Below, piece after piece: positions 31,038 through 63,795 of a DNA stretch of 64,000 bases (position 1 is its first letter; every line of letters begins with the position of its first letter). The position numbers were made by a program, and so were the translations under genes. This DNA is from Bryopsis sp. KO-2023 (taxonomy: Eukaryota > Chlorophyta > Ulvophyceae > Bryopsidales > Bryopsidaceae), in the NCBI GenBank assembly GCA_030272585.1, contig BSYQ01000001.1, positions 10,617,001 to 10,681,000 of the forward strand, given 5' to 3'. The notes under the pieces are model-generated. The model searched no databases and had not been told where the DNA came from. It worked only from the letters and a program-made list of their open reading frames with translations.

Positions 31038-31040
31038 GTT

Positions 31041-32180: not shown

Positions 32181-32181
32181 T

Positions 32182-32193
32182 TGGTTTCGGAGC
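32182..32193 (+). other. Primer-binding site of element C1
   Basis: TGGTTTCGGAGC (then CCGG) starts two bases inside the LTR. Confidence 0.85.
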
Positions 32194-37123: not shown

Positions 37124-37545
37124 TGATAGTGAAGCTTGTGGGTGACGCAATAGTGGTCGGCTGTGTTGGTTGGATTCGTGATAACTTGCTGGCTAACGCA
37201 AGTATACTTGTGGGGTTTGTTGCTTTAGACAACTCTCTAGCTAGCGCGGTTGTGAACGCTACTAGAGCACTTGGGTTGGGAAGTGATTGCGTCAGGCAAA
37301 CACTTAACACACACACACACACAAACACACACACAAGCGGGAACACACCAATCCCACGAATCCCGAGTTCTTACAAAGTAAAGTGAACGTCAAAACAACG
37401 AGTGGGCCTCTTAAGTACCCCTAAGTGTAGTACGCTGACGCATGCCCCAAACTCTGGGTCTAATCTGTCTTACTCGCGAACCCACATGCGTCAGCCACCC
37501 TCGGCTCTATCCCAAACTACCTCGTATAGCGCTAAAAGACTAACA
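37124..37545 (-). repeat. 3' LTR of element D
   Basis: Reverse complement of the B-type LTR, 422 bp, TGATAGTG...CTAACA on the plus strand. The G-run polypurine tract lies at about 37549-37558 (as Cs). Confidence 0.95.
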
Positions 37546-37740
37546 TACGCCCCCCCCGCAAAAAGTGGGCGCCCACGCACACCAAAACACAAAGAAAAAC
37601 AAAAACACAAAAACACAAACACAAAACTCACCCACTCCCATACCCATACCCAACTGTCTTGGACCTGTCTCTTGCTCTGACGTCTCTGACAGCTGCTGCA
37701 CGCACACACTTGGTCGACGATAACTCCTTTTCCCTCCTCC
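37546..37740 (-). other. 3' untranslated region and polypurine tract of element D
   Basis: Counterpart of 28659-28856 in B. No gene is seen; it is CA/A-rich on the plus strand. Confidence 0.7.
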
Positions 37741-39522
37741 TTAACGCTGTTCCTGCGCTTGCGCTTGCTGGATAGCACGATACCGGACACAGGGATCAAA
37801 TGCGGCAGCCACCCTCTTGGACTTAAGGAATGGCAGATCCCTTGTGATGCCGGACACCTTGAGCTGCCGCTTCACACACATGTTGCAATGTGGCAACTTC
37901 TCGTGCTCAGCCGGGAACGGAGGGATTTCTTCGAACGTCGAGCGTGTCAGCTTCAACATATGGGCAGGTAGAGAGAATGGGGAGACGGTGGCGATGGACT
38001 TGTTGTCCACTTCTGCGACTTTTTGGACCGCCGTGACGATGCGCCCCAGCATCGAGTATGCCAACCAATGAGCATCACACACAAGGTGATACCCACAAGG
38101 AAGGACGGAATACTTCTTCTGCGTCAGCCGCTGAGCACTTGCCTGCATTGGGCTTCTCCCGCACCAAATGCACATGGGCAACTCGTGAAAGTGCCGGTTG
38201 CCGCGGTAATCTTGCAAGGCTCGGTCCCTGGGGTTAGTATATTGGACCTTCGGCCATTTCTCTGACGCAGTGATGGGGTTGCAAGCCTCCTCGATATCCT
38301 CCCGTGACAGGTTCACTTCGCTAGGTGCAGCATCCACTTTGTCCTGAGCAGCCGCCCTTAATCTCCTGAGCTTAACCTTTTCTCGGAAAGCCCGAAGTGC
38401 TGCTTCTGTTGGAGCTAACTCCAACGGTGGATGGACCGCACGCTGAACCTCTGTCACCTGGCTTGGCCCTTCATCATTCCTGATTTCCCCGTCCTCCAGT
38501 TCAGAACTAGGACCTTCGAGCCTAGGAGGTGGACTGCCGAAGTCAATTTCTTCGTTAAAATCCAAGTCCAAAAGCTCCTCCTCTCTCATGTCGAATAAGT
38601 CCTCCCCCGGTGCTATTGCGGTAGCCTCATCTCCGGGAGTCTGAACTGTTGGTGCTGGTTGTGAGGGTGCTGGAGTCTTTAATGCGGCAGCCTTTAACTT
38701 GAGTAACAAGTTGGCTCTTGCTGCATCTCCAGGCATACGATCCCTCGGTGGCTCACCACCTTCATCGTCACCGTCCTCTCGCCTTCTCTTTCCGTGTGGA
38801 TCTTCATCCCTACACGGCGAGCTTGGACGTTTGTTTTTCCCTTTCCCCTTGCCCTTGCTTGAGCCTCCCGCATCATCGTCCTTGGACGGTTCCAGATCAA
38901 GTGTTGCGTTTGACAACAGAACTTGGACTTGGCGATCCAGTTCTTCGCGTACCCGTGGTGCTGGTACCGCCGGGTTCAAACGCAGCATCTTGTCCGTTGT
39001 TTCGCTCTGCACTTGAAGTTTTTCAGAGCCGTCTCTGAGGGACTCTCCCAGCAAATCGATCTGCAGCTCTTGTTCTGCCAATTCCTTCGTAAGGTTGTTG
39101 GCTGCTGCACTCCACGCGGTTGCTACAGCTCGCTGCAGCGTTTCCTCTACCGCGGTAAATCGATCCACCATTCCCCCGAGAGCTTGTTTGCGGAGGTCAT
39201 TCTCACGATGGTTAGCCATCATGTGAGATTGGAACCGCTGCTTCTTCAGCTTCATGGCTTCCAATTTTTCTTCCAAGACCTTGGTCTTGTCCTCCGCTTC
39301 TTTCTTTTCCGCCTCCGCCTTTTCCTTGGCTTTCTCCGCTGCCTCCTTCGCAGCCTCAGCTGCTTTCGTCCGGTCACTCAACTCTGAGAGCTGCCGGGTT
39401 AAGGCCTCATTGTTCTGCAGCACTTCCTCTGCGGTCGACGTAAAGTGCTGCAGCTCCTCTTCTTTTTTAGCTACCTCCGCTTCCAATCTCGCAATAATTG
39501 CGGCGGGTGTGTCGGCAGCCAT
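37741..39522 (-). CDS. Third ORF of element D: coiled-coil protein with RING-like pairs
   Basis: Same protein as the B third ORF with a few substitutions (for example Trp to Arg in LSDWTK, Lys to Arg near KLKKQ) and a slightly shorter Gln-rich end (IQQAQAQEQR). The start is taken at MAADT (39522) because upstream sequence differs in frame from B. CIWC, CGYH, CDAH and CNMC are all kept. Conservation of the full ORF in two independent copies argues that the protein is functional for the family. The internal CTTATAAG box lies at 39638-39645. Confidence 0.85.
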   Translation of the reverse strand: MAADTPAAIIARLEAEVAKKEEELQHFTSTAEEVLQNNEALTRQLSELSDRTKAAEAAKEAAEKAKEKAEAEKKEAEDKTKVLEEKLEAMKLKKQRFQSHMMANHRENDLRKQALGGMVDRFTAVEETLQRAVATAWSAAANNLTKELAEQELQIDLLGESLRDGSEKLQVQSETTDKMLRLNPAVPAPRVREELDRQVQVLLSNATLDLEPSKDDDAGGSSKGKGKGKNKRPSSPCRDEDPHGKRRREDGDDEGGEPPRDRMPGDAARANLLLKLKAAALKTPAPSQPAPTVQTPGDEATAIAPGEDLFDMREEELLDLDFNEEIDFGSPPPRLEGPSSELEDGEIRNDEGPSQVTEVQRAVHPPLELAPTEAALRAFREKVKLRRLRAAAQDKVDAAPSEVNLSREDIEEACNPITASEKWPKVQYTNPRDRALQDYRGNRHFHELPMCIWCGRSPMQASAQRLTQKKYSVLPCGYHLVCDAHWLAYSMLGRIVTAVQKVAEVDNKSIATVSPFSLPAHMLKLTRSTFEEIPPFPAEHEKLPHCNMCVKRQLKVSGITRDLPFLKSKRVAAAFDPCVRYRAIQQAQAQEQR

Positions 39523-39972
39523 TATGTTTGTCGGAAAGAAAGATATAAACAACGGTTTGTGCGTCTTTAGACTCTTTTTTACTCAGGAGCTCGCTCCGTT
39601 CACACAAACACTAGGGCAAAATGGTTCGAGGGCTGCGCTTATAAGGCTGGGTGACTCGTACACTTTCCTCGTTGGGTTATTGGGGTGAGACACCAACGTT
39701 TCGCTCGGTTGGAGTCTCGTCAAGACCACCTCAACACGTCACTTGATAGGGGTTTTCTCGGAACAACCACACTATCTCGAATGTGACATCGTTTGCCCGG
39801 TTTCTAAAGTACTACTGAAGCTACACTTACTGCGCCAACCAAATAACTTAGGCACCTAACGCATTAAAGTTAAAGAGTTGGTTTGGAAGTCGACAGAGTT
39901 TTTCTAAGGTATCCTTTTTCGCGCCCCCTTGCTATAAGGAGTTCCACCTTAGCCATCAAACACTCTGCTTCC
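39523..39972 (-). promoter_or_regulatory. Pol to third-ORF gap of element D with TATA-like box
   Basis: No gene is seen. CTTATAAG (39638-39645) sits about 120 bp before the third-ORF start, as in B. Confidence 0.4.
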
Positions 39973-42900
39973 CTATTCTCTTCCTTTCTGCAACTCTTTT
40001 CTTTCTTTCTCTTTAAATGCGCGAAGTATATCTGGTGCGTTAACCAGATTAGCTTCAGGTTCCCAAGTAGCGTCAAGTAGATCGTATCCTTTCCACAGCA
40101 CTAGGTATTCGCGATTGCGTTTACCTCTAGCCCTTAGGATATTTTCGACCTCATACTCTACTTCGCTACCAATCAACTCTCCTTCTGGAGGTTGTATTTG
40201 CCTGCTGTTATCACTCGAGGCGTGATAACGCTTGAACTTAGAAACATGAAACACTGGGTGAATGAGCCATGTTTCCGGAAGTTGAACTCTGTAAGCCACC
40301 TTTGATATTTTCTCCACAATTTCAAAGGGACCCACAAATCGACGGCGCAGTTTGGGACTCACTTTGTTCAAAGCAGCCAACGGAATAAAACGGCTTTTTA
40401 TCAGGACTTTATCCCCTTTCTCAAAAGCAATATCTTTCCTCTTCTTGTTTGCACTCACACACATTCTGTGTTGTGCTCTAGAGTAATATGCTTTTGCGGT
40501 ATCTAAGTCCTGTGCCATCCGTGCTACCATTGTCTTAACTGCTTCCACTTGAAATTGCGTTGCCGTCCCACCAATGTTTGGTGTTTCTGGATGGTACCCA
40601 TACATCAAGTATGCAGGTGCGAACCCTGTACTCGCATTCACTGCATTGTTTGCTGCAAACTCTGCTGTAGGTAAATACTCAACCCACTTATGGGGATACC
40701 TCTCAGCATATGGCCTTAAGAAATTTTCCAGAGTACGTATGGTAACCTCACTCTGCCCATCCGTCTGAGGGTGGTAAGCTGTACTCATACGAATCTCTGT
40801 ACCCAGAGCTTTAAAAAGCGTCTGCCAGAACTTGCTGGTAAAGCGAGGGTCTCTATCAGACACAATCACTTTAGGTAGGCCATGGTTGCGGTAAACATGT
40901 TCGATAAAAAGTTGGGCGTAACCTGCAGCGGTAAGCTCTTTAGTACATGGGGCGAAATGCACAAACTTGGTAAGTCTATCGACAAAGACAGCTACAGCAG
41001 TAAACCCATTGGATGCTGGTAGATCTGTCACCAAGTCAGTGGTAATTTGCTCCCACTTCCGCTCAGGTATTGGTAGGGGTTGAAGTAAGCCCATAGGCTT
41101 CTGTGTGTCAGCCTTTATTTGTTGGCACACAGGGCATTCGCGCACAAATGCCTTCAACTCATTCATCCACCCCTTCCACCAATATCGCCGCGCTAGGATT
41201 TCTCCTGTTCGCGCTGGTCCTGTATGGCCTGCTGAAGGTGTCTCATGGCACTCCTTCATAATCTTATTGCGCTGGCCTTTAGGAACCACCACTTTCTCGA
41301 CTAATCCTCTCTTTGGGACCGTCCAGAGTATTCCCTCTCTGAGGAAATATCCTTCAACTTCCTCGCCACTCTCAAGCTTCCGCAATATCTTCACCAAGGA
41401 GTTATCAGCTTGGAGGGCTTGTTTCCACTCGTCTTGGCTTGCTTGATGCACTTGCCAAGTGGAAATGTTCATCGCAGTTTCCACGGGCTTAGGAACACTG
41501 CGGGAGAGAGCATCTGCCAACACATTAGCCTTGCCTTTGATATAGGAGATCTTGGGGTTGATCGAAGTCAGGTACCCCGCCTCAAGCCATCTTGCTTGGG
41601 TTCTAGAAAGGTTCCTCTGCGACAGAATATGCGTCAGAGGTTGGTGGTCAGTGAATACTGTTACTCCACCCGCACAACCTTCTAGATAATGTCTCCACTG
41701 CACCATCGCATAACATATTGCACACAACTCTTTGTCGTATGGTGCATAGTTAAGCTCGGCAGGCTTGAATCTACGTGAGAGGTAAGCTATTGGCTGTAGC
41801 CCCTCTCCGTGATCCTGTGTTAACACGGCACCGATGGCCTCATTCGACGCATCAGTGATCACAGTGTAAGGCAGTGACGCATCTGGAAAAATAAGGACGG
41901 GAGCTTGACTTAAACGCTTTTTCAGTTCATTGAATGCGCCACGCTCAACCTGTCCCCATCTCCAGGGATGGTCTTTTTTCACTAAGTCATGGAGTGGTCC
42001 AGCAACATGTGCAAACTGGGGAATGAATTTCCTGTAGTATGAAACCATTCCAAGGAAACTACGTACATCGCTAACACTCTGTAGTTCCTTCCACTCCTTC
42101 ACTGCCTTCACTTTTTGTTCCTGTGGTTCTAACCCACTTCCGCTAATGCGGTAGCCAAGATAGTCTACTGTTGCGACAGCCAGCTCACTTTTACTTGCCT
42201 TAGCAAAAAGCTGATATTCTGCTAGTCGCGACAGGACTTTCTCTAAGTGTTCGGCATGCTGTTCCATGTTTTCAGAGAAGATGAGTATGTCATCAATAAA
42301 GACAACAACAAAATCATCTAAAAACTCTGCGAGTAGGTCTTGCACTAGAGTTTGGAATTGCGCTGGGCAATTGGTTAGCCCAAAAGGCGCTACCAAAAAC
42401 TCAAAGTGACCGTATCTCGTGCGGAACGCTGTTTTATCTGTATCAGATGGCCTTACTGGAAATTGCCAATAGCCTGATCGCAGATCTAACTTCGAGAACA
42501 CTTTGGCTTTGAACACTCTATCCATCAATTCCTCTGGCAGGGGTAAAGGATACCGGTTTTTCACCGTCACCTTATTGATCCACCTGTAATCCACACACAT
42601 CCTTAAGCCTCCATCCTTTTTCGGTACAAATAGGATTGGCGCGCCCCAAGGGGACTCGGATGGTTTGATTTTCTTCTGTTCCAGAAGGTAGTCCACTTGT
42701 GCTTTCACTTCATCCAGCTCTGCTGGTGAAAGCTTGTATATTGGACGATGGATAGGTGTTGGATCCTCCAGGTCTATCTTAAACTCATGACCTTTTCTCT
42801 TCGGAGGGATCCCTGGGGGTAGATCACGAGGGAACACACCACGGTGTGTTTCTACCACCTTTTTAATTTCGGCAGGGGTGTCTGAACGAATAAGTTTGCC

Positions 42901-43971
42901 AATCTCATCCTCAGTGTTGAATGGCTGTGTTCGCTCTATTGCGTCAGGCAATTCATGTTGGCCTAAAGCTTTCTCTTCAGACTCTTGCACTACAACCATG
43001 AATGCTGTCTCTGTTTTGAGATGACGCATCATTCGTTTAGCTGAACACTCAGTCACTGGCACTTCTTGCAGTATCGACTGTACTTTTCGTTCAGGTTCAA
43101 TACTCTCTTGGGTTGGATGACGCAACGGGAGATGAAACACTTGGCTGTTTTTGCAAACTGAAATCTCATTCTGCTGAAAGTCTATGCGGGGGTTTTCTTT
43201 CTGCAACCAAGGCATGCCCAATATTAGGTCATAACCAAGGTCTGGGAACAGATCCGCTTTCATTTTGCACTTCAGCCCTCCTATCTTTACTCGGAGGTTG
43301 TTACAGCTGCCAGCCAATTCTTTAATATCTCCGTTTGCCAACATTGCTCTCTTTGAGCTTGGTGTAATCGACAACCCAAGATCACGCGCTACCTTGTCAT
43401 TGATATAGTTTGCGGTACTTCCACAATCAATGAATGCATAAAGGTCCGTGGTCTTGATCCGTGCTTTTACTTCGTACCCTCTCACAGGCACTTCTTGAAT
43501 TTTTAACAGAGGGCATGTGTCACCCTTGGTTGACGAAGTTGATCGAACTTCTGACACATTAACTCGCTCTGTGGTAGACCGCTGGGTTGTTTCTGACCCA
43601 CTATCGTCTACGTCTGCAGGCAGGGACTCCTGTAGACTACTCTGCGACTCCAATGAGCCCACAGATTCACTAACAGAGGGAAGAGATGTAGATGACGCAT
43701 GAGGCGCGTCCATCTCATCCGGTGTGCTTTCCTTCTGTTCATTTTTCCAATCGCAGTTGTCATGTGCCGATTGGGTAGATGTGGGGAGTGTCTCTGTTCT
43801 CTCTTCACGCGGGGTACTAGTCCGCGCCCCAGGTTTTCCGCTGTGAGTACAAACCTTTTTCGAGGCACCTACTTTTGATCTATGCTTCCTACGCCGCCTA
43901 CGAACTCTGTTTCGCTTACGACGTTTGCGTCGGCCAGGCTCAGACGAAGCAGTTTCCTGCCTGGCGGTCAG
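39973..43971 (-). CDS. pol: Pol polyprotein of element D
   Basis: Near-identical to B pol: protease D-C-G (plus 43420-43428), RT FIDD, RNase H, HHCC and DDE integrase, GPF motif and chromodomain at the C-terminus. Differences are single residues (for example DLLAEFLDDF versus DLLTEFLDDF, KELTAAG versus KEITAAG). There is no stop or frameshift. It is entered by -1 slippage at GTTAAAC (plus 43971-43977), and the basic region follows directly. Confidence 0.95.
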   Translation of the reverse strand: MTARQETASSEPGRRKRRKRNRVRRRRRKHRSKVGASKKVCTHSGKPGARTSTPREERTETLPTSTQSAHDNCDWKNEQKESTPDEMDAPHASSTSLPSVSESVGSLESQSSLQESLPADVDDSGSETTQRSTTERVNVSEVRSTSSTKGDTCPLLKIQEVPVRGYEVKARIKTTDLYAFIDCGSTANYINDKVARDLGLSITPSSKRAMLANGDIKELAGSCNNLRVKIGGLKCKMKADLFPDLGYDLILGMPWLQKENPRIDFQQNEISVCKNSQVFHLPLRHPTQESIEPERKVQSILQEVPVTECSAKRMMRHLKTETAFMVVVQESEEKALGQHELPDAIERTQPFNTEDEIGKLIRSDTPAEIKKVVETHRGVFPRDLPPGIPPKRKGHEFKIDLEDPTPIHRPIYKLSPAELDEVKAQVDYLLEQKKIKPSESPWGAPILFVPKKDGGLRMCVDYRWINKVTVKNRYPLPLPEELMDRVFKAKVFSKLDLRSGYWQFPVRPSDTDKTAFRTRYGHFEFLVAPFGLTNCPAQFQTLVQDLLAEFLDDFVVVFIDDILIFSENMEQHAEHLEKVLSRLAEYQLFAKASKSELAVATVDYLGYRISGSGLEPQEQKVKAVKEWKELQSVSDVRSFLGMVSYYRKFIPQFAHVAGPLHDLVKKDHPWRWGQVERGAFNELKKRLSQAPVLIFPDASLPYTVITDASNEAIGAVLTQDHGEGLQPIAYLSRRFKPAELNYAPYDKELCAICYAMVQWRHYLEGCAGGVTVFTDHQPLTHILSQRNLSRTQARWLEAGYLTSINPKISYIKGKANVLADALSRSVPKPVETAMNISTWQVHQASQDEWKQALQADNSLVKILRKLESGEEVEGYFLREGILWTVPKRGLVEKVVVPKGQRNKIMKECHETPSAGHTGPARTGEILARRYWWKGWMNELKAFVRECPVCQQIKADTQKPMGLLQPLPIPERKWEQITTDLVTDLPASNGFTAVAVFVDRLTKFVHFAPCTKELTAAGYAQLFIEHVYRNHGLPKVIVSDRDPRFTSKFWQTLFKALGTEIRMSTAYHPQTDGQSEVTIRTLENFLRPYAERYPHKWVEYLPTAEFAANNAVNASTGFAPAYLMYGYHPETPNIGGTATQFQVEAVKTMVARMAQDLDTAKAYYSRAQHRMCVSANKKRKDIAFEKGDKVLIKSRFIPLAALNKVSPKLRRRFVGPFEIVEKISKVAYRVQLPETWLIHPVFHVSKFKRYHASSDNSRQIQPPEGELIGSEVEYEVENILRARGKRNREYLVLWKGYDLLDATWEPEANLVNAPDILRAFKEKERKELQKGRE

Positions 43972-46619
43972 TTTAACATTTTTTTTACATCGGGGAGGTT
44001 TTTCACCTCCTCCAATCTAGGACATTGCCTCACAGGGTGACCCTTTTTTCCACAAAGATAACAATTATATCCCCCTCCCCCCTGGGGGTTCTGTCTTCCC
44101 TGATTGGCTTGTCCTCTTCCACGGTTACCACCACCGCGTCCACGTCCACCACCACCACGTCCTCCTCCTCTACCTTGTTGCTGTTGCTGCTGCTGTTGTA
44201 CTCCTGCGGCAGCTTGTGGTGGTGCTTGGGCTGGTGGTGTAGGGTTCTGCTGCTGCTGACTCTGATTCTGGCCTTTCTTCTTTCTTCCACCACGCCAGAC
44301 TCCTTTCTTTTTCTGATTGGTCTGCCCTCCTTGGCCTTGTGTTCCAACTCCAAGGGCTTCCAATCGTTCGGCGGATATGATGGCAGCCTCGACATCTCGA
44401 GGTACCGTTGCAGCGACTAACTTCTGAACTTCACTCTTAAGTCCATCCACGAAGAGCAAATACTGGTGATCCTCTTCGAGGTCTGGAATCCTCAAGACTA
44501 ACCGCTGAAACTCTTTAACGAACTGTTTCACGGTTCCAGTCTGCTTGAGTTTGTGGAGGTCACGCCACGCTTCATCTCGATCACTAGAGAATTCGAAAGC
44601 TGTAGCTAAGCCATCCATGAAGTCCATCCAGTCACGGAAGGGTGGTCTTTCACCTCGGTGAATTTTCAACTCTTGCATCGTTAACCAATCCGAGGCAGCC
44701 CCATAAAGGTTAGTGGCCATAATCGATTGCCACTGTGCTTCATGCACTCCGCAGGTTCTCAAGTACCGCGTCATGAGCACTTGCCATTTACGGGCTTTTG
44801 GTTCTCCACTTCCGTTAAATGCGCGAGGCATTTGCAACTTGACGGTGCTAGGCAACCACTGTCCTTGCCTAGGAGGTCCTGGGCCTGCTGGTCCAGCGCC
44901 ACCTCCACCTCCACCTCCACCAGGAGGTCCACCGGGAGGTCCACCGCCTCCACCATCTCCACCGCCGCCACCACCTCCTCCGCCATCAGGCGCACCTGGA
45001 ATGCGGGAAGGTGGGCGGTTTCGTCTGTCGCGGTAATCATCACCGCCATCATCATCTGGGTCGTCATCACCAGGGTCTCCAAAGTTACCTCGCATGCGAG
45101 GAACTCGACTGGGTCCACCAGTAGACTCATATGAACCAAGTGCAGCAAAGGGATTATTTTCTACCCTTGCTCCCAAAGCACTTAACCCAAGTCCCAATCT
45201 TCCCGTACGTGTGGGGATCTGCATGGGTTCTTTTCCTTTCTCTTCTCTGACCTGTGCCTTAGCACGCTCAAGGTCAATTTGATATAACACTTCTGCTGAG
45301 GAGAGAACTCTTGGGTTAGTTCGTGTGGGTCTACGTGATCCATCGGCAGAGTCGGGTTCTGAGATGCGTATACCAGGCTGAGCTCTTGTACTTGGAGGTA
45401 TCAACTGAGGGAATGTGAAATCAGCGTCTGGTGCGCTGTCCACTGCAGTGCATGGTGGTGCTTCTGCAGCAACAATTTCACCCTCCTCGACCTGTACTGC
45501 TGGAGGAGCCGGTATTGTTGAGGTTCCTGCCCCAACCATTCCTACCGCGAAGCTCTGGTCTAGTGGCGGCCATGATGCAGCCAACTGCTTTACTGATTTC
45601 TTTGGCAGCGGCATCCCAAAGGCTGAGTCCTCAGGCTCAGGAGAAGTTGATTCTTCTCGCTCTGGTGATACTGCACGAGCATCACTTCCACTTTGGGCAC
45701 TCTGACTTCCGCCACTCACATCCTCCATGCTTCGTTCCAGGCCAGATAATCTTAAGGCAACCACATCAGCTGCATCTTGCTGCTGATCCCAGGTTTTGGA
45801 TGCCTTTTTCTCCAAGGCAATCAAATCTTTTTGAATTGCTACCCTTGAGCTCTGCAAACGCTTCACCTCAGCACCTTGTTTGTGCAAGGACTCCCGAAAC
45901 AATTCTAGAGTCCGTTCGACTTTTTCGTTGGAATCCGCAACAGTTCCTAATAAGCCTTCAATTCTCCGCCCTTGAACAAGGGATAACTCGGAGAGTTGTT
46001 TTAACTGAAGTGCTGATGCTTCAGTTGCTTCTTTTAGGTCAGCAAAACGAGAGTCCGCTAGAATGTCTGCGGCATCCATTCTCCTCGTTATTGCGTCCAC
46101 AGAAGCTTTGATCTCGGCTCTTTCTTTTCTATGGTCGATATCTTGGCGTAATAGCCTCTGCTCGTATCGACTATGTTGAGCCGCTACTGACTCCAGCTTC
46201 TCCTGTTGCGACACCACCGCATGCTGTGTGGCCTCAACCTGTTGCGCATGCTGGTGCTGTGTTTCCAGCGCCTGCCCGATCACCTCTGATGCGCCAGCCA
46301 GTTGGTTCGACACAGAGGCCTCAGTATGGGCTAGCCTCTGCCCCAGTGTCTGGTCAACTTGCTGCAGGTGACCCCTTAGCCCGTGGGCTAAATCGTCCAC
46401 ACGGTCATGGACCGCATCCACATCCTCTCTTAAGGCTTCCGCATCAGCTCCCATGTCTATGTCGACAGCTGCTTGCTGGACATTGTGGATGTTCTGGACG
46501 TTTATTTGTTGGTACACCACATTGGGTGCGTCAGGCAATTCCTCATCGAACTCAGGTTCAATCCCTGGCTCTTCAACTTGAGGCTCGCGCACTGCCAATG
46601 CGTGTTCACGGTCAGCCAT
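43968..46619 (-). CDS. gag: Gag polyprotein of element D
   Basis: 883 residues, same length and layout as B Gag: coiled coil, poly-Gly linker, capsid, RGG region and CCHC knuckle (CYLCGKKGHPVRQC). It ends MLN-stop with GTTAAAC before the TGA. The few substitutions are scattered (for example NLPDVKKMLN versus NLPNVKQMLN). The start ATG has the same ACCATGG context. Confidence 0.95.
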   Translation of the reverse strand: MADREHALAVREPQVEEPGIEPEFDEELPDAPNVVYQQINVQNIHNVQQAAVDIDMGADAEALREDVDAVHDRVDDLAHGLRGHLQQVDQTLGQRLAHTEASVSNQLAGASEVIGQALETQHQHAQQVEATQHAVVSQQEKLESVAAQHSRYEQRLLRQDIDHRKERAEIKASVDAITRRMDAADILADSRFADLKEATEASALQLKQLSELSLVQGRRIEGLLGTVADSNEKVERTLELFRESLHKQGAEVKRLQSSRVAIQKDLIALEKKASKTWDQQQDAADVVALRLSGLERSMEDVSGGSQSAQSGSDARAVSPEREESTSPEPEDSAFGMPLPKKSVKQLAASWPPLDQSFAVGMVGAGTSTIPAPPAVQVEEGEIVAAEAPPCTAVDSAPDADFTFPQLIPPSTRAQPGIRISEPDSADGSRRPTRTNPRVLSSAEVLYQIDLERAKAQVREEKGKEPMQIPTRTGRLGLGLSALGARVENNPFAALGSYESTGGPSRVPRMRGNFGDPGDDDPDDDGGDDYRDRRNRPPSRIPGAPDGGGGGGGGGDGGGGGPPGGPPGGGGGGGGAGPAGPGPPRQGQWLPSTVKLQMPRAFNGSGEPKARKWQVLMTRYLRTCGVHEAQWQSIMATNLYGAASDWLTMQELKIHRGERPPFRDWMDFMDGLATAFEFSSDRDEAWRDLHKLKQTGTVKQFVKEFQRLVLRIPDLEEDHQYLLFVDGLKSEVQKLVAATVPRDVEAAIISAERLEALGVGTQGQGGQTNQKKKGVWRGGRKKKGQNQSQQQQNPTPPAQAPPQAAAGVQQQQQQQQGRGGGRGGGGRGRGGGNRGRGQANQGRQNPQGGGGYNCYLCGKKGHPVRQCPRLEEVKNLPDVKKMLN
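43971..43977 (-). promoter_or_regulatory. -1 frameshift heptamer of element D
   Basis: GTTAAAC on the minus strand, directly before the gag TGA. The downstream GCCAGGC/GCCTGGC stem of B is also conserved (plus about 43933-43965). Confidence 0.72.
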
Positions 46620-46750
46620 GGTCTCTCAGCCACTATTTGGGAGTACTCAACAACCACGGTTGGAGTTTCTCTCTACCAAACAAACAAACAAAAACGTTTG
46701 TTGCGCCACGTTCACAAGTTTCGATCTCAAGAACTTAAAGTTCTTGCCTT

Positions 46751-46762
46751 GCTCCGAAACCA
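46751..46762 (-). other. Primer-binding site of element D
   Basis: TGGTTTCGGAGC on the minus strand, two bases inside the 5' LTR (46765-47186). Confidence 0.85.
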
Positions 46763-46764
46763 AT

Positions 46765-47186
46765 TGATAGTGAAGCTTGTGGGTGACGCAATAGTGGTCG
46801 GCTGTGTTGGTTGGATTCGTGATAACTTGCTGGCTAACGCAAGTATACTTGTGGGGTTTGTTGCTTTAGACAACTCTCTAGCTAGCGCGGTTGTGAACGC
46901 TACTAGAGCACTTGGGTTGGGAAGTGATTGCGTCAGGCAAACACTTAACACACACACACACACAAACACACACACAAGCGGGAACACACCAATCCCACGA
47001 ATCCCGAGTTCTTACAAAGTAAAGTGAACGTCAAAACAACGAGTGGGCCTCTTAAGTACCCCTAAGTGTAGTACGCTGACGCATGCCCCAAACTCTGGGT
47101 CTAATCTGTCTTACTCGCGAACCCACATGCGTCAGCCACCCTCGGCTCTATCCCAAACTACCTCGTATAGCGCTAAAAGACTAACA
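46765..47186 (-). repeat. 5' LTR of element D
   Basis: 422 bp, identical by eye to 37124-37545. It is followed by the CGGAC target duplication. Confidence 0.95.
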
Positions 47187-47191
47187 CGGAC

Positions 47192-49386
47192 AACTGCAAC
47201 CAATCGCATATGAGAGTCACAAACTCATACCCGCTGAGCGGAACTACCCTGTACACGAACAGGAGTTGTTGGCGGTGGTGCATTGTCTCCGCACCTGGCG
47301 ACACTACCTTGAGGGACGGAAATTTGAGCTCCGGACGGATAATGCGAGCCTTTTGTATCTCCGGACACAACCCACGTTAACACGGCGACAAGCACGTTGG
47401 GTGGAGCTACTAAGTGCCTTTGATTTTGACATTGTGCATATTAAAGGGACCGCCAACATTGTGGCGGACGCATTATCCCGAAGACCTTTACGTGAGGACA
47501 CGGAAGTGCCTTGCGGCGGCGGACAAAAACACCCCCCAGGACGACAAAAGCCTGGGGTGGGATCCCGCAAGACAGATGAAGACTTAAGCGGACAGGCCAC
47601 TAGACCTGACCGCCCGGGGAAAGGACAATTGGGGGACTGGGCATCGGACCAGTCGGAGGTAGCTTTTGATGAGCCCCCATTGAAATTTTGGGATCCGTCA
47701 GCTGAAGAAGTGGAAGCACTTGCTCGACGTGCCCCGGAGTCCAACACGGACGACAAAATTAGTAGGCTGGACGACAAAGTTAGTCGGACACAGGCCGACA
47801 AAGTTGATCCGTTGAGGGAGGAGTCTGGCGATAGGGGAAACAAGACTCAACCGCCACTAGAGCTTTCCGCTCTGGTTGACGCGCGCACCGGTCCCACTGA
47901 TGACCTCATTGATGCTATAAGAAACGCACAGAGGTTGGATCCATTGGTGGCGGACATTGTATTGCGGTTAGAAGCGCGAGAAGCGGAAGTGGAAGCTATG
48001 TACGTGATGGAGGAAGACGGTTTACTCAAGAGACGACTATCGGATGAAGAGGAGCTACGCTTGGTGGTACCGCGGGGGAACATCCGCAACAAAATACTGC
48101 GGCTCTGTCATGATAGCCCTGCGAGCGGCCACAAGGGCCAAGAAAGAACAAGAGAATTAGTGGGAAGATACTTCTACTGGAAATTCTGGAAGAAGGAGGT
48201 CAACCACTACGTCCGCACGTGTCCCACTTGTCAACGAACTAAGGTGGAGTCACGACGGCCGGCTGGTTTGTTAACACCATTGCCAGTGCCAGGGCGGAAG
48301 TGGGAATCCATCGCGACTGATTTGGTGGTTGCTTTACCTCAAACAGAGCGGGGATTCGATGCCATTGCGGTATTCCTTGACCGCCTAACCAAAATGATTC
48401 ATCTTGTTCCCACTACCACACGTGTTACCGCTGAAGGATACGCGCGACTGTTCTTTGAGGGCGTTTGGAAGTACCACGGACTTCCACGTTCCATAATCAG
48501 TGATCGCGACGTAAGGTTCACGAGTGAGTTTTGGCGAGCACTCTGGGCGATGCTGGGCGGAGAGCTCCGCATGTCGACCGCCTTTCACCCGCAAACAGAT
48601 GGAATTACGGAGCGGGATATCCGAACTGTACAAGAAACGCTGAGGGCGTACGTTTCTGAGAGACAAAACGACTGGGATCTTCGGTTGGCGCAAGTGGAGT
48701 ATGTCTATAATAATGGCGTTCACTCTGCTACCCGCTATACACCATTTTATCTCAACTATGGGATACATCCGGAGCATCCCGCTGCACTTGTGTCTGGCGC
48801 ACTACAGGCGCGAGCGGAAGGGGTAAGACAGTTCACCCAGCGGATTCAAAGAGACTTAAGAACCGCACAAAACTATCTGGGGGCAGCAAGAGTAAGAATG
48901 AAGCGATTGGCGGACCAGAGCCGACGCGATCAAAACTTTGCTGTGGGAGAACGTGTCCTACTGCGGACGAAGAACATTGAGCTGATGCACAGCGGGCCAA
49001 GCAAGAAACTACAGGCACGCTATGTAGGTCCGTTCCGCATCCTGGCGAAAGTCGGGGATGTTGCATATCGTCTTGAACTTCCTCGAGGGTGGCGAATCCA
49101 CAACGTCTTCCACGTATCATTACTGCGTGAGTTCCATTCCACTCAGCAGTATGGCCGCCGTGAATTGGAAGCTCCACCGGCGGATTTGGTGGAAGGAGAA
49201 GAAGAATATGAAGTAGAGCGAGTTGTGGACCACCGGGAAAGGAGAAGGGGTCGGCGAACGATCCTGGAGTACTTGGTTAAGTGGCGAGGATATGGCATGG
49301 AGGAGGCACTGTGGTTACCGGACGATGAACTGCAGAACGCACCACTTGCTGTAGCTGACTACCGCGCTGCCGCACGCTTGGGGTAG
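47192..49386 (+). CDS. pol: Pol of element C1, part 2: rest of RNase H, integrase, chromodomain
   Basis: It continues the frame broken at 37123. RNase H resumes at LQPIAYESHKL and ends near VADALSRRPL. A linker of about 180 residues, rich in Asp, Lys and Arg with repeated D-D-K-x-S-R units, precedes integrase; it is longer than in B. Integrase has HHCC (about 48105-48240, CPTCQRTK) and DDE in ATDLVVAL, SDRDVRF and TDGITERD, then a GPF motif and a chromodomain (about 49200-49360; YEVERVV, YLVKWRGYG). The usual chromodomain E in WEPE is replaced (ALWLPDDE). It ends at TAG 49384-49386 without internal stops. Confidence 0.9.
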
Positions 49387-49966
49387 ATGTTGGGGAGGAC
49401 ATCTATCGTCGTCGAGAACAAGTGGCGGACAGAGGCGAGGGGAGCTTAAACCAGTTCTGGAAGAAGTGGAACTCAACGAGGAGCCGACAAACTCTCAGTA
49501 TATCCGCTGATTTCAGTCGGCCGGTGGCAGCACCGCCGCTGAGGCTGGTATGGGACAGTTTTGGTGGAAGTTTACCTAGCGCTAAAGGGAAGGACTGAGC
49601 AGACACCGGTTATCCCGCTAGCGTGAACAGCCGACTGTGGGGACTGCTGCGAGGGAGTTTGGAGGTACTGGATCAGAGACACCACCGTCGATATGGTGGA
49701 CTGTTGGAGCGCGCAAGGAGCTAGAGTATGCTGTGGACGCAGTGGTAGCCGCGCAAGACCGTCAGAGACAGTGATGGGTGTTCGGGGTCGTTGAGTGGAA
49801 CTGGGGTGGGTTTTCTGGGGGAATCAAAAGGTTGGGGGATTTTTAGTTTGATTACAGTTTTATGATTTGGAAATGATTGAATTGTTTATTGAATTTATTT
49901 GACCATTCCAAGCAGACAATCTTCTTATTTAGAGTCGGGACGATTTACTAGATAAGAGGCGGCGTT
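49387..49966 (+). other. 3' untranslated region of element C1
   Basis: 580 bp between pol and the 3' LTR without a convincing gene. GATAAGAGGCGGCG just before 49967 may be the polypurine tract. An identical copy in reverse lies at 54342-54921. Confidence 0.7.
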
Positions 49967-50194
49967 TGTAGCGCATGTGTGGTACAGACAGCTGCATGTC
50001 TGACTTGGTAGTACGGGATAGTACAGGGGTCACCTCAGAGTACGATTGTACTACAGAGGTTACAAGGAGGGCTCTGTGCTAGGTTCGAACGTTAGTTTTA
50101 TTTCTGTAAAGTTATTTCCCTTCAAGTGTGCTCGTGTGTGACTATCGCCCCACCCTCAGTTCGTTACACAGCTCAAACCCACAGAGCTGTAACA
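49967..50194 (+). repeat. 3' LTR of element C1
   Basis: 228 bp, identical by eye to 31953-32180. It is followed by the GAGAA duplication. Confidence 0.93.
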
Positions 50195-50199
50195 GAGAA

Positions 50200-51330
50200 A
50201 CAGGAAGAAGCACAAACTTCTGTCCCTCCAGAGGATGTGAATGAAAGATCTAATATCCAATCAGACAAAACAATACTCAAGGCAGAGTTTCAGCGTCTCG
50301 AGTCACTCACGGGACAAGCGTTTAGCTTGGACGGGTGTGCTAACTCAGACCAAACCAATGCCTTGTGTGCAAAGTTTTGTATTGGTGAGGGGTTTTTTGA
50401 GACTACTCTTTCGGGTGAGCATGTATGGCTGAATCCTCCATTCAAGGAGCTTCACAAATACATTGATCACTATGTGAGAGAAAAGAATAAGTCTCCACAC
50501 AATACTTCTTGTTGCATTCTGGTTCCACAGTGGAATAAAGAGCCGCATCCGGCCTTGGCCTCTATGAGACTAATTGCACAATACAAGAAGGGCATGGTTT
50601 TGTTCACCGCTATGAAAGGAAAGCGCCGGAAAAGACTTCCAGGTCTTCCTTGGCCAGTGAATGTATACTATGACCCACCTGTCCCCTTGGTACCAAAGGA
50701 TACTCAAGATTTACTTACCCAAGACAGGATGTCAATGCACTTTGAGGGAACTCTTAGTGGCATTCCTGCCCATTGTCTTTTGGACTCAGGAGCTAAGGGA
50801 TTAGCATTCCTTTCCAAGAGATTTTGTGAACAAAATGGGATTTCCTTCAAGGTAACCACAAGTTCGCAAGCCGAATTGGCCAATGGGAGTTATATTGATA
50901 TCTTAGGTGAAACAAAGATCTCTCTGAAAATTCAAGGCTTCCGCGAGAAGTTGAATTGTTTGGTGATTGATCTGATGGAGAAATTTGATATCATTTTGGG
51001 TGATACGTGGTTGCGAAATCGCAAGGCAGTCTTGGACTTCTTTGAGAAGAAGTGTGCCGTGACGAATTCCGCAAATCAACGGATCTTGATACGCCAGGGT
51101 CTTTTGCCCAAGGCCACTGGTGGAGAACAAAGCATTCCCCACAAAAATGTTGGTTCCTTACTCACTATTCCACAGGTGAAGAGAAAACTCAAGGATTCCT
51201 CTCTTCAACCATTTCTGGTGGTAATTCGTGAAGTACAGGACGTACCCGCACATGTAAGTGTAGCGGAGGAAACCGGTGAATCAGATCAAGTCCCTGAGAA
51301 GGAGATGGAATCTCTCTTGGAGGAATTTGA
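50200..51330 (+). CDS. Element F polyprotein, second piece: N6-adenine-methyltransferase-like domain and aspartic protease (partial)
   Basis: It continues in frame from 31952 after C1 is removed. The first domain (about 50260-50690) has the layout of phage-type Dam adenine methyltransferases: FSLDGCAN with conserved Asp and Asn, a spaced NALC..FC stretch, then GEHVWLNPPF, where N-P-P-F (50432-50443) fits the catalytic [DNS]-P-P-[YFW] motif. CCILVPQW and a KGMVLF strand follow. A retropepsin domain comes next, with D-S-G (50783-50791) and IILGDTWL. The frame is cut at 51330 by the LTR of element H; the reading through to 51373 is LTR sequence. RT and integrase of F are not in the window. The methyltransferase role is inferred from motif layout only. 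Confidence 0.8.
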
Positions 51331-51597
51331 TGTTAGACTTGGGGGTGCAAGTCTAAGAAGAGCTAAAAACTAAAACTTATGAGTCCATGACCTTGAAGCC
51401 CATTAATACCATGACCCCCAAGGATCCTAGCGTCCCCGCATGGTACCTAGGACAACCATCCTAGGTGGGCACCCGACATAGGTCTAGTCATCATGACTAG
51501 ACCTGACTCACATGTCCACGTCAGCATGACTATGCATGACTGTACATGATTATACATGACTGGACCTGACTGGATGTAGCTCTTAACATCCCTAACA
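51331..51597 (-). repeat. 3' LTR of element H
   Basis: The plus strand reads TGTTAG...CTAACA, a perfect 6-bp inverted pair, 267 bp, with a purine-rich tract adjoining (minus TAGGGGGGAGGTA, plus 51598-51610). It contains an 11-bp-arm palindrome (51480-51504) and five 10-bp ATGACT-type units (51524-51573). No partner copy is in the window. Confidence 0.72.
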
Positions 51598-51612
51598 TAC
51601 CTCCCCCCCTAA

Positions 51613-52101
51613 TCAGTCTCCTCCTGGAGACTCCTTTCCTCACTTCTATATAGCCCATAGAATGATACAGAGTCCCACAACGAACCCCAACTCTTATCAT
51701 TCAACTATATAAAGTGTTTCGATAACTTGGAGATGTTATCATAAGTGTATTCGTCAGAATAAGCCCCTACTCTGATATAGGTCATCCGAGTCCTTCTCAT
51801 ACACGGAGTGCTTCTCGGATCTACCAAGACCATACACTTCTCTACACTGGTGGCGAACCAATGTACATCAACTGAAGTCTCGCAACTTCATCTACTTCCA
51901 TTTATATTCTCATTTTGAATGGATCCCATCTAGAGTTCAAAATAGAATATAGCGAGAAATTCAATTTAGTTCACTAGTTCATTGAAAATGAGATATGTTC
52001 TTAAACATGTCCTCACTTAACAAGAACTTGATCTCGTTCACAAGATCTGGAACTCTTTTCATATCGACACTCGATTATGAAGAAACATTACCCCACACAA
52101 G
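51613..52101 (-). other. 3' untranslated region of element H
   Basis: Between LTR/polypurine tract and the pol stop. AT-rich with TATATAG and TATAAAG sequences but no gene in either strand. Confidence 0.6.
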
Positions 52102-54113
52102 TCACGAACGAAGTCGCCTACTTCGACGTACCGGAATAGGGGGAATCAACGTTGATTTCTTTCTCTTCTGGTACTGCTCTACCAGCTCCCGAGCGTTCTC
52201 CAAATTCGCTTCAGGCTCCCAAGAGTTGTGCTCATGTGAGTATCCCGTCCACTTTACCAAGTACTGCGGAACTACTCGTCGACCGACCTTTACTTCACGG
52301 TAGTCGAGGAGGTCTTCTACCTCATACTCTAGTTCTTCCTGTATATCCACAGGTGGCGGAGGAGGTTGTGTCTTTCCATGCGACCAATACCTCTTAAGTA
52401 AAGAAGCATGAAAGACTGGATGAATAGGAAGCGAATTAGGCAATTCCAATCGGAACGCGACCTGTTCTGCCATCGGTTTTCGTTTTTGGACACCTTCCAA
52501 AACACGAAAAGGACCCAACCAACGTGGCAATAACTTCCTTGATCCAGGGTGTTTCAATTTGATATGTCGTGCATCCAGCAAGACCATATCGCCTACTTGA
52601 ACATCAACTGAACACCTACGCACATCAGCATAAGTTTTCATCCGTTGCTGAGCACTTTCTAAACACCGCTTTGCTTTGACAATCGCCTCACGAATGTCCT
52701 CGGTCATCTTCTTCACCGCCGGTACTCCAATCTGTGTCCTTTGTCTACTCAGACCTCCAGGACCCATGACATTCGATGTCTTGGATGGAAGTTGTACCGT
52801 TAATGGTGTCCACGGATCTCTACCGTAGTTCAAGAAGAACGGTGTTTCACCAGTAGCCATCGACTTAGAGTTGTTCAATGCAAACTCTACCACTGGTAAC
52901 AAGTCACTCCAATCTCTTTGACGAGGTCCTACGAAATGCCGTAAGGTATCTTCGAGGATCCTATTCATTGCTTCAGTCTGTCCATCACTTTGTGGATGAA
53001 AAGCTGTCGACAATGCTTGAGTGACCCCTAAGGTCTTACAAAGCTCTCTAAAGAACTTTGAAGTCCACCTAGGATCTCTATCGCTTACGAGGTGCTTAGG
53101 AAGACCGTGCAAACGGAAGACCTCAGTAACGAAGAGTTTCGCCGTTTGTACCGCATCACACGTAGTGTGCGTTGGTACGCATCGCACCATCTTTGTGAGT
53201 CGATCCACAAAAACTAAGATGGCATCAAATGCTTCTGCTCCTGATTTAGGCAAATCAGTAATCAAATCCATTGAAACTGATTCCCATCGACCATCAGGTA
53301 TACGTAAAGGTTGCAAAGGACCAGGCACCTTGCCGCGTCGGTGTTTGTTCCTTTGACATGCATCGCATCCTTTTACAAAGTTTGCGATATCTCCCTCTAC
53401 GCCAGGCCACCAAAAGTATTTCAAGACTGTTCTTTGGGTCTTGCGGATCCCAAAATGTCCTGCATATACACTTGCATGGCTATCATGTAGGATGTCTTCT
53501 CTAAGACTATCCCAGTTTGGTACTACTACTCGTGCACCATTCCACCACAGGCCTGAGTGCTTTTGACAACCTGAAGCGGCGACATCTTCGGTTTCAAACC
53601 ACTCATCCCTAGTGATCCCCTCAGTCAATCTCTCCTTTAGCATCGACGTACCGGGCCGGGGCGAGGACGGATCCCCTTTCCAAGTTGGTCGTTTCTGGCC
53701 ACCTCCCAGCTCCGAGAGTATTCCGATCTGCTGAGAATACGACGGATATCGTGACAAGGGGTCTGCCACGTTCGTCCGTCCCGGCCTGTATTCCCACTCG
53801 AACCGGAACCCCTGGAGGACTTCGAGCCAACGTGCCGACCTTCGAGAGAGAGTTTCCTGGGAATGGAAATATGTGTTAGGCTGGTGATCACACACCACCT
53901 TAAACACACGCACATCCAGGTAGCATCGCCACAACTTAAGAGCATGCACTACGGCGAACATTTCCTTGTCACCTATGCTCCAGTTAAGTTGGGCTCCTGA
54001 TAACTTTCGACTTTCAAAAGCTATAGGATGTTCCTCTTGCAACAAGATTGCACCGATCGCGTAATCCGAAGCATCTGCGATAACTTCAAAATCCTTTTCG
54101 AAGTTAGGCATTG
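52102..54113 (-). CDS. pol: Pol of element H, C-terminal part: RNase H, integrase, chromodomain (split by C2)
   Basis: It reads leftwards from 54113. RNase H begins at FEVIADASDYAIGAIL (first catalytic Asp present) and ends near NVADPLSRYP. Integrase has an HHCC finger (CDACQRNKHRRG) and DDE in SMDLITDLP, SDRDPRW and SDGQTEAMN. A GPF module and chromodomain (about 52330-52170; YEVEDLL, YLVKWTGYS, SWEPE) follow, with a basic tail. The open frame running into the C2 LTR up to 54180 is spurious; coding sequence stops at 54113. Sequence differs clearly from A, B and C, so this is a separate chromovirus lineage. RT and upstream parts lie outside the window. Confidence 0.88.
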
Positions 54114-54341
54114 TGTTACAGCTCTGTGGGTTTGAGCTGTGTAACGAACTGAGGGTGGGGCGATAGTCACACACGAGCACACTTGAAGGGAAATAACTTT
54201 ACAGAAATAAAACTAACGTTCGAACCTAGCACAGAGCCCTCCTTGTAACCTCTGTAGTACAATCGTACTCTGAGGTGACCCCTGTACTATCCCGTACTAC
54301 CAAGTCAGACATGCAGCTGTCTGTACCACACATGCGCTACA
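54114..54341 (-). repeat. 3' LTR of element C2
   Basis: 228 bp, the reverse complement of the C1 LTRs, TGTTACAG...GCGCTACA on the plus strand. The flanking CATTG (54109-54113) is the expected left target site; its partner is outside the window. Confidence 0.92.
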
Positions 54342-61831: not shown

Positions 61832-63795
61832 GGGAGTGGGTCGGTCCAGAAAAACGAAATAAAAGGAAAAGGAAAAGGAGGAGACGTGGCAAACGTGGGG
61901 GACGGAAAGAGCAATGGCGTCGATCAGGGAGGAGGATCAAGGAGCAGGAAGAGAGAATGCAACGCCAAACACAAGAGGTAGAAAGGGCCAGAAGTCTGTG
62001 GCCAGACTCATGGGCCATGCAGTGTTTGAACCATAGCAAAACAGTGGAGGCCGAAATTCTGATGAGGGAGGAAATGGGGGAAGAAAAAGAAAAAAAAGGA
62101 ATGGAAAATTCAGGGGAAGGGAAAGCCAAAGAAACAGAAAAAGGAGGAGAAAAGAAAGAAAGAGGAGAAGGAAAAGAAAAGTTTGGGTTGAAGGAAATGG
62201 GACAGGCAGCAGTTCAGCTGCAGGAAAACCAAATTTGGGCAGGGGTGGTTCCCCTTGGGACTTCTGATGTAGAAAATAAAACGTTTGCCACAGAAAAGGA
62301 AAGAAAGGAGGAAAAGGTGTCACTTAGAGAAAAATTGGAAGAACTGAAAATTAGTCCCCATCTAACCCCCCACCAAAGAAAGGAACTGCTGGATCTTCTG
62401 CAGCAGTACCCCGATGCCTGTGCTTGGTCCTCGGATCAGGTCGGGCAAACCAACCTCTTATACCACGAGATTCCCACCGGAGATCATCCCCCCATCAGGC
62501 AGAACCCCTACAGGTTCAGTTACGCGGAGAACCGGGTGGTAAAATCGGAGGTGGCGAGGATGCTCCTGGACGGAGTGGTGCGGAAGTCAAAGTCCCCGTG
62601 GGCCTCACCGATCGTTCTAGTCCCAAAGCCAGATGGGTCGGTGCGGTTCTGCGTTGATTACCGCAAGCTTAACAAGGTGACCACCCGAGATAGCTTTCCC
62701 CTCCCGAGGATTGAGGACGCGATCAACCAATTTTCGGAGGCCAAATTCTTTACCGCTCTGGATTTGAGGTCAGGGTATTGGCAGGTCAGGATGAGCACCG
62801 CCTCCGCGGAGAAAACGGCTTTCATTACCCAGGAGGGGCTGTATGAGTTCGTAGTGATGCCCTTCGGGCTCAGTAACGCCCCAGCGACCTTCCAAAGGAT
62901 GATGAACGAGGTACTGGGACCCATGCTGTGGAAGGGGGTGATCGTGTACCTGGATGACATTATCATCTATGCGGAGACCTGGGAAAAGCATCAGGAGATC
63001 CTGGCAGAAGTGCTGCAGCGGTTGAAGGAGGCCAACCTGAGGATCAGCCCGAGGAAATCGGACTTCGGGTTTGAGGAGCTGCTGTACTTGGGCCACATCG
63101 TGGGGAAAGGGGAAATCAAAATGAACCCGAAGAAGGTAGCCACAGTGGAGATGCAGGAGCCACCGGTGGATGTGTCTACTTTGCGGTCCTTCCTGGGCCT
63201 TACTTCTTACTACAGGAGATTTGTGCGCGACTATGCAAGGATCGCTGCACCTCTGACGGAGTTGTTGAAGAAGGATGTGCCATTTGAATGGAGGGAACGC
63301 CACCAACAAGCATTTGAGAGGCTGAAGAAAAGCATTACCGATCAACCAGTCCTGGCTCCACCACAGCCACACCTACCATACATTCTGCAAACAGACTGGA
63401 GCAGCCAGGCTGTGGGGGCAGTACTCTGTCAAAAGGATGAGCAAGGGAGAGAGCATGTGGTGGCTTATGCCAGCAAAAGACTCAATCCTGCTGAGAGGAA
63501 TTATTCTGCAGTGGAAGGGGAGTGCCTAGCAGTGGTGTGGGCTTGCACCTTATTTCGGCCATACATCTACGGAACGGAATTTGTGCTGCAGACTGATCAA
63601 AGAGCCTTACAATGGTTGATGACGGGTACCAAACTGACGGGGAAACTGATGAGGTGGGCACTCCGCCTACAAGAGTTTGATTTCACGATTGAGTTCCGCG
63701 CTGGGAAGAGTAACGCAAATGCGGATGCACTGACAAGGCTTCCAGTTCCGCTGGACCATCCAATAGTCAGTGGTTCCACAGCGCTTCGTCCATGA
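61780..63795 (+). CDS. pol: Pol of element G: basic region, RT and RNase H
   Basis: It is read by -1 frameshift (codon TTG at 61780); no ATG start is expected. An Arg/Lys-rich stretch (61845-61935), then a Glu/Lys-rich linker, then RT (about 62440-63290) with FCVDYRKLNK, LDLRSGYWQ and YLDD (62947-62958). RNase H (about 63350-63740) has D in QTDWSS, E in YSAVEGECLAV, D in LQTDQRAL and ADALTR. The frame stops at TGA 63793-63795, right after RNase H, where integrase would be expected to follow. Integrase-type sequence seems to resume in another frame at 63882, so this copy is probably frameshifted. Confidence 0.85.
   Translation: MSGPATDVLLRRHLKGWREWVGPEKRNKRKRKRRRRGKRGGRKEQWRRSGRRIKEQEERMQRQTQEVERARSLWPDSWAMQCLNHSKTVEAEILMREEMGEEKEKKGMENSGEGKAKETEKGGEKKERGEGKEKFGLKEMGQAAVQLQENQIWAGVVPLGTSDVENKTFATEKERKEEKVSLREKLEELKISPHLTPHQRKELLDLLQQYPDACAWSSDQVGQTNLLYHEIPTGDHPPIRQNPYRFSYAENRVVKSEVARMLLDGVVRKSKSPWASPIVLVPKPDGSVRFCVDYRKLNKVTTRDSFPLPRIEDAINQFSEAKFFTALDLRSGYWQVRMSTASAEKTAFITQEGLYEFVVMPFGLSNAPATFQRMMNEVLGPMLWKGVIVYLDDIIIYAETWEKHQEILAEVLQRLKEANLRISPRKSDFGFEELLYLGHIVGKGEIKMNPKKVATVEMQEPPVDVSTLRSFLGLTSYYRRFVRDYARIAAPLTELLKKDVPFEWRERHQQAFERLKKSITDQPVLAPPQPHLPYILQTDWSSQAVGAVLCQKDEQGREHVVAYASKRLNPAERNYSAVEGECLAVVWACTLFRPYIYGTEFVLQTDQRALQWLMTGTKLTGKLMRWALRLQEFDFTIEFRAGKSNANADALTRLPVPLDHPIVSGSTALRP

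Follow-up and report, generated by a model that had tools for sequence, protein, structure and literature searches.

Two kinds of DNA methyltransferase are known from retrotransposons. DIRS-type elements carry a Dam-like domain in their polyprotein (PMC3783388, PMC5890265), whose function is given as still not known in the relevant passage of PMC3266345. According to the corresponding sections of PMC3783388 and PMC3266345, the pol frame of these elements has the order reverse transcriptase (RT), RNase H and methyltransferase, and they possess a tyrosine recombinase and neither a protease nor a DDE integrase. Cytosine methyltransferases occur in LINE, DIRS and gypsy elements in the accounts of PMC5890265 and PMC6338049, and cytosine-5 DNMTs are described as structurally unrelated to Dam (PMC5890265, in its section on these enzymes). 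In the open-licence PMC literature, we found no account of a Dam-type domain placed ahead of the protease in a gypsy element; PMC6338049, in the passage concerned, mentions gypsy and DAM together in a single sentence but presents no such element. Here we describe what appears to be a group of this kind, namely Ty3/gypsy chromodomain elements with a phage-type methyltransferase-like domain (MT) lying between the Gag zinc knuckle and the protease, in the ulvophycean alga Bryopsis sp. KO-2023.

An interrupted copy in the window

The window, i.e. the whole stretch of 64,000 nucleotides that was analyzed (positions 10,617,001 to 10,681,000 of contig BSYQ01000001.1), contains a copy of the element family F in two pieces. 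The 5' piece (30765-31952, forward strand) includes the LTR (30765-31037) and is 98.9% identical to positions 1-1188 of F in the uninterrupted copy L009. When translated, it shows a CCHC zinc knuckle, CWFCGETWTRGHKC, at 31747-31788 on the same strand. The 3' piece (50195-51332, forward strand) encodes MT and the protease, ends before the RT and is 99.8% identical to positions 1184-2321 of F in L009. Other elements, with other gypsy frames inside, are inserted between the two pieces (31953-50194, ~18.2 kb), and the sequence GAGAA at both edges of the insertion (31948-31952 and 50195-50199) is a 5-bp target duplication.

MT spans about 50264-50713 on the forward strand as judged from Pfam, PHROGs, NCBIfam and our own profile, together with an AlphaFold model and a fold search, which is close to the span of 50260-50690 proposed in the earlier note. 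As that note had also claimed, the LDGCAN motif (50327-50344), the catalytic-type motif NPPF (50432-50443) and the LDSGA of a retropepsin (50780-50794, with DSGA at 50783-50794) are found together in one frame, 50096-51373. The retropepsin (50744-51073, forward strand) matches PF08284 with E 1.2e-8 at residues 221-326 of this frame and PF13650 from residue 217. The further claim that the CCHC knuckle shares a frame with MT and the protease holds in uninterrupted copies such as L009, but in the window copy the piece with the knuckle is separated from that with MT by ~18.2 kb of other elements. A search of the six frames of the window with the MT profile gave no second match at E <1.

The 3' half of an element of another family, F4 (51474-54113, reverse strand), is 98.4% identical to L046 and encodes RNase H, integrase, SH3 and chromodomain according to Pfam (frame 52102-54198). 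The interval 51332-51474 joins two related elements that run in opposite directions, F, which ends before its RT, and the 3' half of F4. Other gypsy elements of the window contribute five more RT stretches at 6273-6890, 23596-24216, 36142-36768, 42151-42771 and 62491-63102.

Uninterrupted copies elsewhere in the genome

We searched the genome (91 Mb in 28 contigs) for further copies. That the host is a green alga is borne out by 107 matches to light-harvesting proteins in this genome; for one of the best-scoring exons, the nearest solved chains are green algal LHC proteins, with siphonaxanthin LHCII of Bryopsis near the top. A fungal host was rejected on these grounds; a search for the Zn-cluster family of fungi came out empty in this genome and equally in the controls. 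In L009 the CCHC knuckle, MT, protease (PR) and RT are continuous in a 1483-aa frame, and the sister family F2, represented by L013, has a 1701-aa frame with the order Gag-CCHC-MT-PR-RT-RNase H-integrase-chromodomain. The order CCHC-MT-PR is common to L009, L013 and L046-L048, and Pfam places PR, RT, RNase H, DDE integrase and chromodomain in this order in L013, L037, L046 and L048. That MT is part of the Gag-Pol frame of a Ty3/gypsy element, as suggested in the earlier note, was confirmed in L009, L013 and L037. LTR pairs were found in three of the four stretches searched, with 99% identity in L009 and 100% in both L010 and L013; the search in L014 yielded none. Target duplications of 5 bp flank two of the three copies examined (GCCGC at L010 and TCACA at L013), and none was seen at L009.

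The ~500 bp from the LTR of F (L009:33-5678) to its 1483-aa frame contain no frame longer than 72 aa, and F2 (L013:2443-8508) has ~200 aa more Gag at that end than F. The F element may lack a capsid domain and rely on the Gag of another family.

Among the 150 matches listed in a genome search with the F2 MT protein, grouped by identity, 37 belong to F2 (two of these rows are pieces of one copy), 30 to F and 83 to a group with 42-48% identity. Frames of at least 1700 aa are present in 12 of these 37 F2 rows and in 36 of the 83 rows of the last group, and the 1483-aa frame is found in 16 of the 30 F rows. Reading of the motif in F and F2 gave 38 frames with the motif, or 32 distinct places after six duplicates were dropped. 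It is NPPF at 31 of them and NPHF at one, L037. The latter had been considered as a separate family; this was rejected, as L037 is an F2 copy with NPHF. The motif has decayed at two further F/F2 places, L014 with a stop replacing Trp and L059 with NPLF and a stop. In total, NPPF is present at 31 of the 34 F/F2 places read, the window copy excluded, and some of these copies (e.g. L041) are disrupted outside the motif. The earlier note had made its reading depend on conservation of NPPF in intact F copies, and the reading survived this comparison because NPPF stays at these 31 of 34 places.

Identity of the domain

The Pfam profile Dam (PF05869) matches the F domain with E 1.4e-4, but the score of 22.0 bits is under the curated cut-off of 28.1. 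The F2 copy L013 scores 22.6 bits, also below the cut-off, which is reached by 31 of 49 matches within this genome and by two of the three public relatives scanned (P0036, 32.7; P0039, 29.3; not P0038, 18.8). The PHROGs family phrog_111, 'DNA methyltransferase', matches F with E 6.3e-9 and F2 with E 4.7e-9. NCBIfam phage_N6A_met (TIGR01712) matches F with E 2.5e-4 and 20.6 bits; its curated cut-off of 97 is missed by F, F2, P0006 and P0008 and reached by the phage-type protein P0032, and this profile gave no match at all in F4.

We also built a five-row profile of the gypsy MT (A1) and searched 5.8 billion proteins with it, which yielded 31 matches at E <=0.01. The weakest of these include P0030-P0034, which are of the phage N6A type (E 1.5e-4 to 4.4e-3), P0032 being named a phage N6A enzyme by its source. 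A profile comparison of the gypsy MT with P0032 by hhalign resulted in a probability of 97.0% and E 1.1e-10. In IMG/VR, relatives with 26-35% identity are encoded by 42 of the 151 stretches that have the peptide patterns. The Asp of LDGCAN is present in all 22 selected motif-bearing gypsy rows, in 3/3 rows of the families F4-F6 and in 3/3 phage rows, and it is accompanied by NPP in the same 22/22 and in the 3/3 phage rows (P0010, P0018-P0029 and P0035 were left out of the selection). Kinship with the Dam-type N6-adenine methyltransferases, the central claim of the earlier note, is borne out by Pfam, PHROGs, the A1 profile and hhalign.

The AlphaFold model of MT, calculated from a 32-row alignment with five phage-type rows among them, has a pLDDT of 93.7 and a pTM of 0.87. 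In a Foldseek search of the PDB, six matches reached E <=0.001, and every one of them is to the methyltransferase PCIF1 (E 4.3e-5 to 2.1e-4). The non-significant ranks past E 0.001 are mostly annotated as SAM-methyltransferases of many classes, protein methyltransferases included. The predicted structure thus has a fold of the SAM-methyltransferase type. PCIF1 is a cellular gene with further domains, and its adenine N6 active site is of the NPPF type. Its sequence matches to the F domain are weak (Pfam PF12237, E 0.013-0.04, 15.5 bits vs a curated score of 31.1; PDB chain, E 0.023). For P0032, the Dam-family phage enzyme, no relative was found in the PDB by sequence, and for this reason the lead of PCIF1 is compatible with either DNA or RNA as the substrate. 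Judged by the profiles and the model, the assignment of the F domain as a phage-type adenine-methyltransferase-like domain holds.

The host has a PCIF1-like gene of its own (L045:538-2130; PF12237, E 7e-47) with AGPPYD at the motif position, where PCIF1 has NPPF, and ten MT-A70 matches. The host PCIF1-like gene was considered as the source of MT and found no support (hhalign probability of 0.3% vs 97% for P0032).

A sister clade that lost the motif and kept the domain

The families F4 (L046), F5 (L047) and F6 (L048) have full-length frames with the same CCHC-MT-PR order as F and F2. All 19 copies that were read, 18 of them from the 83 listed rows with 42-48% identity and one from a separate search, have DPGR, DSGR or NPGK in place of NPPF, and FDSS or LDSS in place of LDGC. 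We compared positions that are at least 85% conserved in the 22 motif-bearing rows with three F4-F6 rows. Cys25, Asn32, Asn57 (in two of three), Pro59, Phe60 and Trp90 are changed, as are columns 30, 40, 43, 122 and 129, and smaller changes affect columns 9, 34, 56, 85, 127 and 130. All three rows retain Phe20, Asp23, Cys39, Phe44, Leu45, Val54, Trp55, Pro58, Tyr70, Lys74, Pro78, Pro88, Gly110, Leu113, Phe114, Tyr136, Asp137 and Pro139. Hence, F4-F6 have lost the active-site motif and retained much of the core.

In the RT tree, built from 17 rows and rooted at the midpoint, F4-F6 are joined at 100/100 beside F and F2, and a single loss of the motif is for this reason the simplest history. With a single loss, the divergence of F4 and F5 came after the motif had gone. 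Since these families retain MT after losing its catalytic motif, methylation is not its sole selected role there. Catalysis is probably not the only selected role of MT, and in F4-F6 it is thus dispensable. The retention of the domain suggests that MT is useful besides, or instead of, methylation.

Four elements of this genome are DIRS-like, as judged by the order RT-RNase H-MT alone (L035:2330-4399, L036:1964-4321, L039:2762-3880 and L040:3204-4064). Their Dam-like domains have HPPW, FPPP or CPPL at the NPPY position, which suggests that catalysis was lost in the DIRS-like elements of this genome too.

Selection on the domain

Between F and F2, MT has a dN/dS of 0.14 and a pN/pS of 0.28, the latter being lower than in the adjacent linker in 1999 of 2000 bootstrap replicates. 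The corresponding values between F4 and F5 are 0.19 and 0.28, with pN/pS under that of the linker in 1983 of 2000 bootstraps. Values of dN/dS of 0.00 in the same comparison reflect saturated dS and are not results. These ratios show MT under purifying selection in F/F2 and under equal constraint in F4-F6.

Within families, pN/pS is 0.49 in F, 0.46 in F2, 2.65 in F4, 0.27 in F5 and 0.82 in F6, but the counts are small, some loci enter twice and the F4-F6 copies were chosen for differing protein scores, so these values are not evidence. That of F4 runs against constraint, in a small and biased sample. Among the palindromic tetranucleotides, none is conspicuous in F and F2 alike; for GATC, 29 occurrences compare with 24 expected in F and 37 with 34 expected in F2, and such tetramer counts are unusable as evidence.

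Public relatives and history

Eight public gypsy polyproteins have MT upstream of RT (P0002-P0004 and P0036-P0040). The motif is NPPF/Y in all eight, three of which are only 30-46% identical to F2. In P0002, P0003, P0037, P0038 and P0040 the predicted protein begins near MT, so that Pol may start with MT in these five. When the phage-type proteins P0030-P0034 and P0041 from Cymbomonas are set aside, the public set comprises 34 proteins, 33 of which cover the motif; it is NPP[FY] in 31 of the 33, the exceptions being P0010 (DPLF) and P0020 (NPVY), in a set where most members are short fragments known without element context and where word seeding favours motif-bearing relatives.

In the RT tree, three MT-less elements of the window join the MT-bearing P0002 at 86/88. 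The MT-bearing elements are consequently not shown as one clade, and repeated capture or loss is possible. The MT tree has mostly low resolution, with very long DIRS-like and phage branches, and as a result both direct capture from phage and transfer between elements are possible. In P0041, from Cymbomonas tetramitiformis, RT precedes MT, the motif reads NLPF and the C-terminal pattern is the one seen in the gypsy domains. It is possible, going by these features, that P0041 is a link between the DIRS-like and gypsy MT domains.

Function of the domain

The explanation that we favour, and consider moderately likely, is that a captured adenine methyltransferase acts on the nucleic acid of the element, most likely on cDNA, and that it is active in F/F2 and has a second role in binding or assembly. 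MT would be packaged together with the Gag-Pol polyprotein and, beside the zinc knuckle, would bind the element's own nucleic acid. In F/F2 it would methylate adenine N6 in this nucleic acid, newly made double-stranded cDNA being the likeliest substrate; we give cDNA the preference since the enzymes related to MT by sequence act on DNA. The benefit would be nuclease protection or escape from silencing. Nucleic-acid binding or assembly would be the second role and would explain why F4-F6 retain the domain without NPPF. On this reading F/F2 probably have an active enzyme and F4-F6 a pseudoenzyme. The functional story told in the earlier note is plausible for F/F2 but incomplete, given the motif-less F4-F6.

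The same domain could instead modify RNA. By N6-methylation of adenosines, either within the genomic RNA of the element or close to the cap, it would influence how this RNA is translated, packaged or recognized by the host. All six fold matches at E <=0.001 are to PCIF1, a cap-specific adenosine methyltransferase, to which the sequence is weakly matched as well (PF12237, E 0.013; PDB chain, E 0.023), and the zinc knuckle ahead of MT is of the RNA-binding type. However, PCIF1 may lead merely because the true sister fold is unsolved, as P0032 has no PDB relative by sequence, and the sequence profiles side with the phage DNA methyltransferases. We regard an RNA substrate as unlikely, if a serious contender. 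It is also conceivable, and in our view less probable still, that in every family MT serves for nucleic-acid binding or assembly without catalysis, the NPPF of F/F2 being inherited and unused. The F4-F6 domain is equally constrained after the change of NPPF to D[PS]GR or NPGK and retains many core residues with altered active-site positions, and the DIRS-like elements here likewise have altered motifs. However, NPPF/Y in 8/8 public gypsy polyproteins, three of them at 30-46% identity, is hard to explain if the site is unused, an argument that loses some force, as relatives with the motif were favoured by the way in which the protein search was seeded.

NPPY-type motifs are also found in glutamine and other N-methyltransferases. 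That MT belongs to another substrate class and might modify protein would agree with the mixture of SAM-methyltransferase classes, protein ones included, in the non-significant fold ranks, but the specific sequence relatives are phage N6-adenine enzymes, which makes such an activity very improbable. Finally, the F domain is under the curated Pfam and NCBIfam cut-offs, as would be expected of a coincidental motif in a domain that is no methyltransferase, but the phrog_111 match (E 6e-9), the high confidence of the model, a significant fold match to PCIF1 alone and the conservation seen across several families leave next to no room for chance similarity.

Beyond the adenine methyltransferase acting on element nucleic acid that we prefer for F/F2, we tentatively suggest, at slightly short of even chances, that the MT domains of retroelements (gypsy and perhaps DIRS) are kept foremost for nucleic-acid handling, F/F2 having the catalytic form that makes N6-methyladenine and F4-F6 having lost the site once and stayed successful. 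If so, live and dead forms of MT in one genome would constitute a natural experiment on the role of the domain. Both forms are carried by LTR retrotransposons with many long open copies and, in the three that were measured, LTRs with 99-100% identity. With F/F2 and F4-F6 in one organism, the question of why retroelements carry adenine methyltransferases becomes testable. An active MT would mean that a selfish element writes an adenine mark on nucleic acid of its own.

Comparison with known systems

MT shares with the phage N-6-adenine-methyltransferases (PF05869, phrog_111, TIGR01712) the series LD-[AG]-[AC]-[AS], then N-x-x-C and V-W-L-N-P-P-[YF]. Unlike them, it is a piece of a retrotransposon polyprotein, and F scores below the curated cut-offs. 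The C-terminal stretch Y..G..LF....PGIPWPV..YYDPP is common to the gypsy domains and unaligned to the phage enzymes. PCIF1 has the nearest solved fold but is only a weak match in sequence. Retrotransposons with cytosine DNMTs resemble F/F2 in having acquired a DNA methyltransferase domain, whereas the domain of F/F2 is of the adenine type; in L013 and L037, no C5 DNA methyltransferase family of Pfam is among the matches at E <=0.1. In contrast to DIRS elements, F2 has a protease and an rve integrase, MT is ahead of the protease and NPPF is intact in F/F2. The remainder of the element is that of the Ty3/gypsy chromoviruses, with the order PR-RT-RNase H-integrase-chromodomain, LTRs and 5-bp target duplications (two of three copies), but F/F2 have an extra methyltransferase domain between the zinc knuckle and the protease.
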